Part shown: in pieces, positions 2,578 to 7,666 of the stretch | How positions within the stretch are numbered: the first letter of the stretch is position 1 | Layout of the letters: every line of letters begins with the position of its first letter | NCBI GenBank assembly: GCA_030634615.1 | Contig: DAOWAL010000034.1 | Coordinates: 1-10,455 of the forward strand | Reading direction: 5' to 3' | Source of the DNA: Candidatus Aenigmatarchaeota archaeon | Lineage (GTDB): Archaea > Aenigmatarchaeota > Aenigmatarchaeia > QMZP01 > QMZT01 | Length of the DNA stretch: 10,455 bases | Notes under the pieces: generated by a model | Told to the model about the DNA's origin: nothing | Databases searched by the model: none | What the model saw: only the letters and a program-made list of their open reading frames with translations | Translations under genes and position numbers: made by a program

Positions 2578-3791
2578 GCTTTGTATCTTAGAATTCCACC
2601 TATTCCGCCGATTTCTTTTAACTGATTTCCTTCTTTTGTATCTGTTGATATCATCTCAACTTCTGAACTCATTTCTTCTGCAAGCTTTATTATTTCGTCC
2701 GTAAGATCCTTTTCTGCCTTTATGTCATAAAGTACATTGCATTTTTTACATTTCATTGTTTCGGCTTTTTTTCTTTCCATGAAAACTTCTTTACTGTCTC
2801 CACATTTAGAGCATTCCAAACTTGCTTTTACCCAGTCAAGTTTTTCTGTTACCAACAAAATTTCAACTGTCCCCAGTTTCACAGCTTCCATTACTTCTTT
2901 TATACCGTAAACTGCAAGACCATTATCTTTACCCAAGGCATTGAAAAATCTCATTAAAAGCTTTTTCTCTTTCATTACAGAAGCTTCGGCAAGTGCTTCT
3001 TCTGATCTGTTAACAGCTTCTTCAAGACCATATTCACCAACATATGAAGTATCAACAACCGATATTACTTTTTTCTGTATATCATATCTCATGTACTTGT
3101 TCTCAACAAATCTATCCTTAACACCACCAGGTCCGCCAACTATTATACCTTTTAAATCTTTGAATTCTGAAAATTGTTCTGATGCGACGTTTGCAACTTT
3201 TTTCATGAATTCAATTAAAAGTCCCTCCCTTATACGGGCATACCTGTTAGCGCTCCAACCGCCTTTATCTGTTTTTCCGGGTACAAGCGAACCCAAATGT
3301 TTAAGTTTCTGAAGTCTTTTTCCATGTAAAACACCTATTTCAGCTTCAGATTTATCTATTACAACAATTCCGTAAATTTCAGTTTCTCTTATCATATCTT
3401 TTAGCGGATCTAAAATGAATTTCTGATCACACCAGTACAATTTCTGCTTGAGAGGTTCTGGTGGTTCAAGTGCATAAATTTCAACATCAGAAACTCCTTC
3501 TCTCTGAGAAATATTTCCCGAAAGCACGACAAGACCGTTTTCCGGTGTTTGTTTGTAAAGCTTCAGATGCTGGGATATTCGCTCAAGTGCAGCAACAACG
3601 TTTTTTCTGACAGCCTTTGATTTTATGTTGATTGCTGTTGATTTTTCATTATTTATCTGCTCGGCTGCTTTTGGAAGATTGTACCCGGCAGGAATATACA
3701 ATGAAACAAGTTCTGTATGCCTGCCCCTGAATCCATCCAGTTCTTCAACTAAATCTTTCAGTCTTCTCTTCCTAATATCCTCTTTTGACAT
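2574..3791 (-). CDS. prf1: Peptide chain release factor aRF1 with GGW in place of GGQ
   Basis: aRF1 decodes stop codons in the ribosomal A site and triggers hydrolysis of peptidyl-tRNA. The 405-aa product has the full three-domain eRF1/aRF1 layout. Domain 1 carries the stop-recognition motifs NIKS (55-58) and YxCxxxF (119-125). Domain 2 contains the catalytic loop at about 170-186. Domain 3 has a zinc-ribbon insert (C327, C330, C348, C351) followed by the ISTDTKEGNQ segment and a normal ILRY ending. The loop reads PGKTDKGGWSANRY, so the catalytic glutamine is replaced by W179 (codon TGG, 3255-3257 on the complement), while both glycines and the following S-A-x-R pattern stay. Family membership is sure; how it hydrolyses ester bonds is not. 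It is not Dom34/pelota, which lacks NIKS and the GG loop. The start is supported by a ribosome binding site at 3796-3803. It overlaps the PAP2 gene tail to tail by 4 bp. Confidence 0.95.
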   Translation of the reverse strand: MSKEDIRKRRLKDLVEELDGFRGRHTELVSLYIPAGYNLPKAAEQINNEKSTAINIKSKAVRKNVVAALERISQHLKLYKQTPENGLVVLSGNISQREGVSDVEIYALEPPEPLKQKLYWCDQKFILDPLKDMIRETEIYGIVVIDKSEAEIGVLHGKRLQKLKHLGSLVPGKTDKGGWSANRYARIREGLLIEFMKKVANVASEQFSEFKDLKGIIVGGPGGVKDRFVENKYMRYDIQKKVISVVDTSYVGEYGLEEAVNRSEEALAEASVMKEKKLLMRFFNALGKDNGLAVYGIKEVMEAVKLGTVEILLVTEKLDWVKASLECSKCGDSKEVFMERKKAETMKCKKCNVLYDIKAEKDLTDEIIKLAEEMSSEVEMISTDTKEGNQLKEIGGIGGILRYKA

Positions 3792-3865: not shown

Positions 3866-4720
3866 TCAAAAATTTTTAAGAAACGCGTAAATGCACTTAC
3901 CAAGTTCAGACGTGTAGCCGCCTTCTAAAACTGCAAATCTGGGTTTATCGAGTTTTGCTATCAAAGTAGCTATTCTCGAGTATGATTCCATGTCAAGCTT
4001 TATGCTCGCTATGTTTTCATTTTTGAATGTATCAAAACCTGCCGATACTGCAATTAAGTCTGGATCGAAATCCTTGATCTTATCCAGAGCCACTTCAAGC
4101 TTTTGAATGTACATACTTTCTTCAGTGTATGCATTTAATGAATAATTGAAACAATTTCCGTCTGAATGCTTTCCTGTGCCTGGATATATTTGACCGTACT
4201 GATGTATTGAGGCAAATAGCACGTCCTGTCTTCCCAAAAATATGTCCTGCGTGCCGTTTCCGTGATGAACATCTATATCCAGAATTGCAACCCTGTCTAC
4301 CTTTTCAAGAGCTTTTGTAACAGCTATTGCAATATTGTTAAAGTAACAGAATCCGCCGAATTTCGTCCTCGTTGCATGATGACCAGGTGGTCTCATTAGA
4401 GAAAAAGCTTTTTCCTCTTTTAGAGATGTTTTCATTGCAAGCATTGCTCCACCAACAGAAAGTTTTGCATGGCTGAATATGTCTGGAAGAGCAGGAGTTT
4501 CAAGATTGATGAATTTACCGTGTTTTATTTTATCTATCATTTCTTTAGAGTGGACAGAGAGTAAATCTTCCCTTAGGCATTCCTTTGGTTCTATGAACTT
4601 AAAATCCCGTGTGCTTCTCAGGAATTTAACTGCATCACTGACACGTTTGCTCGATTCAGGATGACCTGGTAAATCGTATCCCAAACATTTATCAGAAAAC
4701 ACAATTTTTGTACGAACCAT
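3866..4720 (-). CDS. Histone-deacetylase-fold zinc amidohydrolase
   Basis: This is a zinc-dependent deacetylase of the HDAC/acetylpolyamine amidohydrolase/AcuC superfamily, which removes acetyl or acyl groups from lysines, polyamines or similar amines. The 284-aa product has every catalytic element: GHPE near the N-terminus (19-22), RPPGHHA with the tandem histidines H114-H115, GFCYFNN (124-129), the metal motif DIDVHHGNGTQ (predicted Zn ligands D150 and H152), AGFD (third ligand D230) and EGGY (catalytic Y269). It is slightly compact for the family. I prefer ATG 4720 (MVRTKIVFSDKC) over the upstream ATG at 4762, because the longer form would add a poorly conserved extension running into the divergent primase start region. 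No ribosome binding site is visible, but a TATA-like element lies 26 bp upstream, fitting a leaderless mRNA. The substrate is unknown. Confidence 0.93.
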   Translation of the reverse strand: MVRTKIVFSDKCLGYDLPGHPESSKRVSDAVKFLRSTRDFKFIEPKECLREDLLSVHSKEMIDKIKHGKFINLETPALPDIFSHAKLSVGGAMLAMKTSLKEEKAFSLMRPPGHHATRTKFGGFCYFNNIAIAVTKALEKVDRVAILDIDVHHGNGTQDIFLGRQDVLFASIHQYGQIYPGTGKHSDGNCFNYSLNAYTEESMYIQKLEVALDKIKDFDPDLIAVSAGFDTFKNENIASIKLDMESYSRIATLIAKLDKPRFAVLEGGYTSELGKCIYAFLKNF

Positions 4721-4741
4721 ATAACAAATTAGTAATTGAAA

Positions 4742-4751
4742 GAATTTATTC
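4742..4751. promoter_or_regulatory. Candidate shared bidirectional TATA box between deacetylase and primase
   Basis: GAATTTATTC (minus strand GAATAAATTC) is near-palindromic, with 8 of 10 positions symmetric. Its centre is about 26 bp from both start codons, ATG 4720 on the minus strand and ATG 4772 on the plus strand. That is the spacing expected for leaderless transcripts in both directions. The whole divergent gap is only 51 bp. An alternative is a second AT-rich element at about 4758-4770 driving only the deacetylase with a short leader. Confidence 0.45.
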
Positions 4752-4771
4752 CTTATACTCAATTTATAATT

Positions 4772-6586: not shown

Positions 6587-7666
6587 CTAAATCGATATAA
6601 AGTGAAGTTCAACAATGTCTGTGTCAGAAAGTGATTTCCTTGCCCCAACTTTCTGTCCTTCAAATCTCGCAGAAGGGCCCCATATACGTGCATAATCTAA
6701 TTTGTATGCAAACTGCTTGTGTATTTTTTCTGCGACATCGTATATATTTGAACCCTTCTTCATAATCAACGGTTCCTCTAAGTCGGGCATTTTTCCTATC
6801 TTTTTAAGATATATTCTCATGAGACAAAGGTTGTTCCATATTATTTTTTTGAGATTTTCTATTCCCTCTTTTTTGAGGCATGATATTTGTATGAAATCCT
6901 TTGGGAGTTTTTTCCTCTCCTCTTCTGATAAAAGATCTACTTTGTTATAGAGAACGCGTGCTTTGACATAAACCCTGTTTTTTGATGTCGCATCAATTAG
7001 TCTGTCCAGTGTTAAGTTTTCTCGTATCAAAATTTCTGCGTTATGTATTCCCCTTTCATTGACAATAAGCTGAACCATTTTTTTGTCTATATGTTTGAGT
7101 TTTACAGCAGAACTTACCTTAACTCCGCCCCTGTTCATCTTTTTTATTATGACATTCGGTGGGGTTTCATTGAGCCTGAAACCTGAATCATAAAGTTCAT
7201 GTCTTACCCTTTCTACCTGATTTGGTTTATCTGCAACAATGAGTATGAGGTCGGCATTTCTGACAACTGAAAGAATTTCTTTACCCCTGCCCCTGCCAGA
7301 AGCAGCATCTGACACTAACCCTGGTATATCTAAAACCTGAATCTGGGCAGAGTTGTAGAGCATAACGCCTGGAACAACATCAAGTGTTGTGAATTCGTAT
7401 GCAGCTATCTTTGAATCGGCTGATGTTATACTGTTTAGCAAAGTAGATTTACCCACGGAAGGGAACCCGACAAGTATAACTGTAGCATCACCCGATTTTT
7501 TAACTGAGTAGGAAAACCCGCCCCTTGTTGATTTTTTACTGGTCGCATCTTCTTTAAGTCTGGAAAGTTTTGCTTTAAGCTGGTCTATATGATACTGGGT
7601 TGCCTTGTTGTACTTTGTTTTTTTAATCTCTTCTTCAATACTTTTAATCTCTTCTTCTTTGCTCAT
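6587..7666 (-). CDS. DRG-family (Obg-related) GTPase with TGS domain
   Basis: DRG (developmentally regulated GTP-binding) proteins are conserved in archaea and eukaryotes and are linked to translation; eukaryotic members bind ribosomes. The 359-aa product has the standard order. An N-terminal helical region (1-60) is followed by the G domain with G1 GFPSVGKS (67-74), the switch I threonines T93/T94, G3 DIPG (113-116), G4 NKVD (241-244) and G5 SCLKKEG (262-268). A DRG-type helical insertion lies at about 155-235, and a C-terminal TGS domain at about 286-359 ends LHFISI. Length is normal. AGGTGG (7674-7679 on the complement) is a strong ribosome binding site 7 nt before the start. The gene diverges from the antiporter across 43 bp and is followed on the same strand by two small zinc-binding proteins. 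Confidence 0.95.
   Translation of the reverse strand: MSKEEEIKSIEEEIKKTKYNKATQYHIDQLKAKLSRLKEDATSKKSTRGGFSYSVKKSGDATVILVGFPSVGKSTLLNSITSADSKIAAYEFTTLDVVPGVMLYNSAQIQVLDIPGLVSDAASGRGRGKEILSVVRNADLILIVADKPNQVERVRHELYDSGFRLNETPPNVIIKKMNRGGVKVSSAVKLKHIDKKMVQLIVNERGIHNAEILIRENLTLDRLIDATSKNRVYVKARVLYNKVDLLSEEERKKLPKDFIQISCLKKEGIENLKKIIWNNLCLMRIYLKKIGKMPDLEEPLIMKKGSNIYDVAEKIHKQFAYKLDYARIWGPSARFEGQKVGARKSLSDTDIVELHFISI

Follow-up and report, generated by a model that had tools for sequence, protein, structure and literature searches.

The GGQ tripeptide is the textbook catalytic motif of translation termination, at which bacteria on the one hand and archaea and eukaryotes on the other arrived separately, and its glutamine is the methylation target of Mtq2-Trm112. 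The aRF1 gene described here lies in a stretch of 10,455 nt from a Candidatus Aenigmatarchaeota genome (hereafter the window) and carries tryptophan in place of this glutamine. The locus raises the question of whether such a protein can still end translation, and of what has become of the glutamine and of its methylation.

The genome of the window is a draft of 1.10 Mb in 142 contigs and is 83% complete. The features of the gene are listed in Table 1. The catalytic loop reads KGGWSANRY (GGWSANRYAR in a longer reading), with GGW at residues 177-179, and contains no glutamine. Both the ORF and its translation confirmed the TGG codon and the GGWSA stretch at the positions given by an earlier sequence-only reading, and the NIKS motif, YWCDQKF and zinc-ribbon cysteines C327, C348 and C351 were present as that reading had described. 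It had also placed TGG two bases from both glutamine codons, which is correct for CAG; CAA is three bases away. The protein scored 466.7 bits against the NCBIfam aRF1 profile TIGR03676 (cut-off 234.7), and the three named relatives among its protein matches were all Candidatus Aenigmatarchaeota. The top Foldseek match of its AlphaFold model (mean pLDDT 81.5, pTM 0.54) was the archaeal aRF1 4af1. In the model the loop is predicted just ahead of the long helix of domain M, in a ten-residue block that is the least certain part of the prediction (pLDDT 56). Canonical aRF1 is defined by GGQ, and this protein has GGW; its sequence places it with the aRF1 orthologues, as a variant without GGQ rather than a canonical GGQ release factor.

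Table 1. Features of the aRF1 gene in the window (positions numbered from the first nucleotide of the window).
Feature	Position	Strand	Remarks
aRF1 gene (prf1), 405 aa, stop TAA	2574..3791	-	Uninterrupted ORF; TIGR03676 and Pfam eRF1_1, eRF1_2 and eRF1_3 over cut-off; best fold match 4af1
Catalytic-loop codons G177 G178 W179 S180 A181 (GGWSA)	3249..3263	-	
W179 codon TGG, replacing the GGQ glutamine	3255..3257	-	W in 53/134 genomes
A181 and N182 codons	3246..3251	-	Q181 (GGxSQ) in most non-Q relatives
W179/S180 codon boundary	3254..3255	-	Intein site of relatives; window intein-free
NIKS stop-codon recognition motif, residues 55-58	3618..3629	-	Intact
YxCxxxF motif, residues 119-125 (YWCDQKF)	3417..3437	-	Intact
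Zinc-ribbon cysteines C327-C351	2739..2813	-	C327, C348 and C351 invariant in 53-row alignment

The gene is flanked by an ORF at 3866-4762, presumably for a histone-deacetylase-like protein, and by one at 2083-2577, presumably for a PAP2-like membrane protein, which shares 4 bases with the 3' end of aRF1. All three stop codons, TAA, TGA and TAG, end ORFs in the window, as stated earlier; of ten window genes checked, the one at 6587-7666 alone ends in TAG.

To place the window protein among its relatives, residue 179 was read in a sample of 156 Aenigmatarchaeota genomes. TIGR03676 was matched at E 0.001 in 148 genomes and above its cut-off in 121, the weak matches including pelota. The loop was readable in 134 genomes; the gene was absent, split or unlisted in the other 22. 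Residue 179 was Q in 62 genomes (CAG in 36, CAA in 26), W in 53 (TGG), M in 18 (ATG) and Y in one (TAT), so that 72 of 134 were non-Q. An exact DNA pattern of the GGW loop was matched in 43/156 genomes. Non-Q members occurred in families f1, f2, f4, f5, f13-f19 and f26, and only f4 combined Q (3 genomes) with non-Q residues (19 W). Protein searches yielded 240 clusters, which are the best 120 of 1470 hits near the window protein and the best 120 of 2535 hits near the Y-type protein and are no census. The clusters listed had W in 123, M in 80, Y in 17, F in 16 and Q in four; those near the window contributed W 116 and Q 4, and those near the Y-type protein M 80, Y 17, F 16 and W 7. Phenylalanine, absent from the 134 genome readings, was thus added by the protein searches, and no sixth letter beyond W, M, Y, F and Q was found at residue 179 among the 240 clusters listed. 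In the 241-row alignment of these clusters, which holds the window twice (cluster P0001 is its own), G177, G178, S180, R183, N55, K57, Y119, C121 and F125 were invariant. TIGR03676 scores of five other non-Q proteins (432.4-486.2 bits) overlapped those of five GGQ relatives (457.9-487.1 bits), and GGQ was present in the PDB aRF1/eRF1 alignments shown. The exchange of the GGQ glutamine for W, M, Y or F is real and clade-wide.

Some aRF1 genes departed from the usual form in other respects. Alignment of the window protein with the aRF1 frames of G029, G032 and G035, and with those of the eight f32 genomes read, stopped at about residue 316-320 and resumed at about 358-369; the zinc-ribbon region seems to have been lost from these frames. 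Thirteen haloarchaeal plasmid records contained an aRF1 match (11 annotated as prf1, two without annotation); the one copy translated, from a Natronobeatus plasmid, has retained GGQ and has a length of only 358 aa.

The suggestion that a second aRF1 performs normal termination was not supported in the window genome (83% complete), in which no second aRF1 was found and the only other eRF1-fold gene found was a pelota. The bacterial release factor domain PF00472 (bacterial-type RF, ICT1) was found in none of the 156 genomes.

Mtq2 was called from matches to TIGR00537 above the curated cut-off of 87 bits, followed by motif reading of borderline genes (20 regions were read and lower-scoring ones left out). 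TIGR00537 exceeded the cut-off in 56/156 genomes. Mtq2 was detected in 48/62 Q genomes and 0/72 non-Q genomes (45/62 and 0/72 by the cut-off alone), and among genomes at least 90% complete in 15/15 Q (14/15 by the cut-off alone) and 0/22 non-Q genomes. All 14 Q genomes in which it was undetected were less than 90% complete. Three Q genomes were accepted by motif below the cut-off (G011, 79.2 bits; G123, 74.3; G152, 70.4). Four non-Q genomes had matches scoring about as high (G028, 85.3 bits; G058, 85.1; G032, 81.0; G029, 73.5), which were rejected by motif, their genes being without the FNxPYLP stretch that the accepted genes have; all four genomes would count if the cut-off were dropped to 70 bits without gene reading. 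The gene of G010, a genome not among the loops read, exceeded the cut-off and was ruled out by its motif. The pattern that the sequence-only reading had named as support, GGW conserved across a clade that lacks Mtq2, agrees with these counts, residue 179 being non-Q in 72/134 genomes and Mtq2 undetected in all 72. No TIGR00537 match over the cut-off was found in the window genome, 83% complete, the best scoring 62.8 bits.

Fisher's test of Mtq2 against residue 179 gave p = 4e-24, a value that ignores kinship and is not for reading at face value; the number of independent contrasts was one on well-supported branches and three on all branches. At least 13 changes of Mtq2 were placed on the tree, partly from incomplete genomes. 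Of the Q islands in the W order, to which the window belongs, G011 and G038 had Mtq2, and none was detected in the third, G039 (58% complete); the Mtq2 tree was too weak to tell whether G011 and G038 had gained the gene by transfer or retained it. A Trm112-like match was obtained in 93/156 genomes, in Q and non-Q alike and in the window genome. Two further methyltransferases were observed. The window genome encodes a 348-aa protein with NPPYVP (contig C73, L213:65-1108), which scored 62 bits against the Mtq2 model, lay below the curated cut-offs of the listed families and matched PRK14968-type putative methyltransferases best. The GGM genome G085 contains a bacterial-type PrmC (232.3 bits, cut-off 199.1) on a 3.1-kb contig, which is possibly a contaminant in a genome with 3% contamination.

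Residues beside position 179 changed with it. Positions 181 and 184 were counted across the 130 genomes that the tree includes, 59 Q and 71 non-Q. Q181 was found in 62/71 non-Q and 5/59 Q genomes, and S or A181 in 54/59 Q genomes; F184 was found in 52/59 Q genomes and Y184 in 65/71 non-Q genomes. The same 62 of 71 non-Q genomes give the motif GGxSQ, which is absent from the window (GGWSAN). The Q islands G011, G038 and G039 have A181 and F184, which indicates that residues 179, 181 and 184 change together there too. The pattern GG[WMYF]SQ occurred in 194 of the 235 non-Q clusters listed that have a regular loop (the intein-bearing cluster P0168 was excluded). Asn182, the form of the window, occurred in five other genomes and in 31/235 of these clusters, the window's own included. 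Neither Gln nor Asn was present at 179, 181 or 182 in 10/235 clusters and in genomes G035, G081 and G085. Five of the 59 Q genomes have a GGQSQ loop. The proposal that another residue replaces the glutamine is thus favoured in the relatives but not in the window itself.

In a 68-row tree with two distant outgroups the M/W/Y group branched first, then f26, then the W order (100/100) versus the Q group (96/96). Neither a single non-Q clade including the Q islands (p-AU 0.315) nor a W order without the Q islands (p-AU 0.268) was rejected. Both one loss of the glutamine with later regain and several losses would fit this tree.

An intein begins directly after residue 179 in 23/134 genomes (loop GGx/C..., loci L149-L171), preceded by W in nine, Q in eight and M in six. 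For 22 of these genomes the reading extended to the distal end, HN/S, which rejoins at S180, and two pieces of G040 show the same GGx/C... start. The three intein-bearing aRF1s scanned, from two genomes and cluster P0168, all had the intein-splicing domain PF14890, and one also had PF14528 (LAGLIDADG_3). The window ORF is uninterrupted, with no intein at W179/S180. On a tree of the 22 inteins the preceding residue changed four times, versus at least eight in 200 shuffles (mean 10.8), a comparison that ignores host kinship; the grouping of inteins by preceding residue is suggestive, their hosts also being related. The Q island G011 bears a Q-type intein. No earlier report of aRF1 inteins directly after the catalytic residue was found in the literature searched.

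A tryptophan-linked change in the peptidyl transferase centre was looked for with a 23S pattern (at most three mismatches, itself asking for U2585 and A2602), which matched 48/156 genomes; the E. coli numbers are our own assignment. This candidate was rejected: U2585 and A2602 were retained whether residue 179 was W, M, Y or Q, save in a foreign-looking fragment of G016. The pattern had no match in the window's own genome. The archaeal Rfam consensus has UAAC at 2449-2452 and GAUGUC at 2502-2507, and many genomes of the phylum, Q and non-Q, have UAAU at 2449-2452 and C or U at 2503. U2452 was counted in 14/15 non-Q and 7/13 Q genomes by a crude regular expression with some intron-boundary misreads. 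Since it is common to both, it is not linked to tryptophan; as read from these patterns, the departures of the phylum at 2452 and 2503 are unusual but untied to W. G013 and G024 of the W order also have C at 2504, and 23S genes often looked interrupted near the peptidyl transferase centre. G016 has two 23S fragments, differing from each other and from those of other genomes, which suggests contamination.

The reading that we favour, with some confidence, is that the window aRF1, beside which no other class-I release factor was found in its genome, still ends translation despite tryptophan in the place of the GGQ glutamine. It would be a functional terminator in which the glutamine side chain has been replaced and catalysis probably falls to the backbone amide. 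Stop codons would be read by the NIKS and YxCxxxF motifs, both observed, as in any aRF1, and domain M would deliver the GGW tip, at the loop position of the model, into the peptidyl transferase centre. There the GGx backbone, notably the amide of residue 179, would position the water, after the published main-chain-amide model. The bulky hydrophobic W, M, Y or F may occupy the space of N5-methyl-glutamine against A2451, 2452 and U2506. With no glutamine to modify, Mtq2 would be unneeded, and its non-detection may reflect its loss. The glutamine at +2 in the GGxSQ loops of most relatives may assist, and the window GGWSAN would manage without it or use N182. According to PMC5799190, U2506, A2451 and 2452 form the surface on which the methyl group of N5-methyl-Gln packs, while the water pocket is formed partly by the main-chain amide and partly by the side-chain carbonyl of the glutamine.

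This reading agrees with the sole aRF1 found in the window genome and the lack of a PF00472 match in all 156 genomes; with the spread of W, M, Y and Q amid invariant GG, S, R and NIKS and YxCxxxF residues; with Mtq2 in 0/72 non-Q versus 48/62 Q genomes and in the Q islands G011 and G038; and with the existence of loops without Gln or Asn at 179, 181 and 182 (10/235 clusters listed and G035, G081 and G085). Against it, PMC8131318 reports faster release upon methylation and the inactivation of bacterial release factors by mutations of GGQ, and PMC5799190 gives the side-chain carbonyl a role. The Mtq2 link amounts to one to three independent contrasts, Mtq2 went undetected in 14 Q genomes as well, calls below the cut-off were accepted or rejected by motif at similar scores, and the window genome has its own NPPYVP methyltransferase at 62 bits to the Mtq2 model. 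The prevalence of GGxSQ (62/71) favours a moved over a dispensable glutamine.

Such a move is possible, though we judge it rather unlikely. The catalytic glutamine would have shifted two residues, from GGQ-S-A to GGx-S-Q as in VLRF1, leaving 179 as a packing residue and Q181 (N182 in the window) to act. The contrast at position 181 and the 194/235 clusters listed with GG[WMYF]SQ are as expected from this; aVLRF-1 and acVLRF-1 carry GGxSQ according to PMC6514570, Nonomuraea acVLRF1 has GGWSQQRFAR against GGWSQQRYAR in the aRF1 of G063, and GGQSQ in five Q genomes is a possible intermediate. These five, however, sit within the Q group and do not adjoin the non-Q groups, and the shift, occurring without an insertion, would oblige Q181 to extend from its position at the helix start to the site of the original glutamine. 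The window itself has GGWSAN, Asn182 occurs in 31/235 and neither amide in 10/235 clusters listed, and the contrasts again number one to three. It is improbable that intein homing drove the change, by replacement of a Gln codon that spoiled the homing site, with inteins later following onto the new alleles. Inteins directly after 179 beside three residues, their low number of changes against the shuffles and the Q-type intein of G011 fit such a history, but vertical descent accounts for much of the fit in a shuffle that ignores host kinship, and homing explains neither the hydrophobic-only letters nor the loss of Mtq2.

We consider it very improbable that the protein no longer hydrolyses peptidyl-tRNA and serves as a Balon- or Dom34-like A-site factor, with another, unrecognised protein releasing peptides. 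Balon and Rv2629 do lack GGQ according to PMC10901736, and the window protein weakly matches Rv2629- and MSMEG_1130-type hibernation models. Balon also lacks NIKS, which the window keeps, and N55, K57, Y119, C121 and F125 are invariant in the 241 rows; the TIGR03676 score of 466.7 bits stands against 41.1 bits for the Rv2629 model (cut-off 320), non-Q and GGQ relatives overlap in TIGR03676 score, and neither another aRF1 in the window genome nor PF00472 in any of the 156 genomes was found. An error of assembly or base calling, or a single aberrant genome, has next to no chance of being the explanation. The genome is a draft in 142 contigs and 83% complete, but tryptophan occurs in 53/134 genomes and 123/240 clusters listed, two or three base changes separate TGG from the Gln codons, and the relatives already refute an error. 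The sequence-only reading was right that one base-call error does not account for GGW, given the 53 genomes and the 43/156 matches of the GGW DNA pattern, and the case it had considered, of this assembly alone differing from its nearest relatives, did not arise.

That peptides are released by a natural terminator without a loop glutamine, and in some relatives without any side-chain amide, we put at even chances. PMC2613156 calls the GGQ tripeptide universally conserved in e/aRF1. Were such release borne out, this "universal" glutamine would prove dispensable together with its methylation, and in much of a phylum the role of methyl-glutamine could be taken by W, M, Y or F. About half of the readable genomes (72/134), with no GGQ glutamine and the modifying enzyme unfound, offer natural tests of three points: side-chain versus backbone chemistry, the purpose of methylation, and a shift of the glutamine by two residues as in VLRF1. 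No earlier report of a non-GGQ aRF1 of Aenigmatarchaeota was found among the papers listed in the literature search, most subscription papers lying outside its reach.

Compared with known systems, the window protein belongs to the eRF1 superfamily together with Pelota/Dom34, which likewise has no GGQ, but a separate pelota-like gene exists in the same genome and the window protein scored 100.1 bits against the pelota model (cut-off 177.65). The hibernation factors Balon, Rv2629 and Msmeg1130 share the superfamily and a loop without GGQ. They differ in lacking NIKS, according to PMC10901736, and the window protein scored far below the cut-offs of the Rv2629 and MSMEG_1130 models; Balon-type proteins are marked by the loss of both NIKS and GGQ, and NIKS is present here. 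From the aRF1/eRF1 proteins (TIGR03676; Halobacterium aRF1 4af1, human eRF1) it differs in GGW (GGM, GGY or GGF in relatives) for GGQ and in the undetected Mtq2; the three domains, NIKS, YxCxxxF, the loop glycines and the S and R that follow are shared. The VLRF1 proteins (acVLRF1/aVLRF-1; NF041024, PF18859) differ in that acVLRF1 has no stop-codon domain according to PMC6514570, whereas the window has eRF1_1; in the NF041024 score of the window, 39.2 bits where the cut-off is 125 (Nonomuraea acVLRF1, 277.1); and in the window loop, GGWSAN and not GGxSQ. The PF18859 domain model was passed by the window (50.8, cut-off 27.1) and also by all five GGQ aRF1s tested. Bacterial GGW-S loops had been mentioned in the sequence-only reading, and the one case found, Nonomuraea acVLRF1 with GGWSQQRFAR, bears this out. 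Relatives of the window carry GGWSQ, and their GGWSQQR is identical to that of Nonomuraea acVLRF1.
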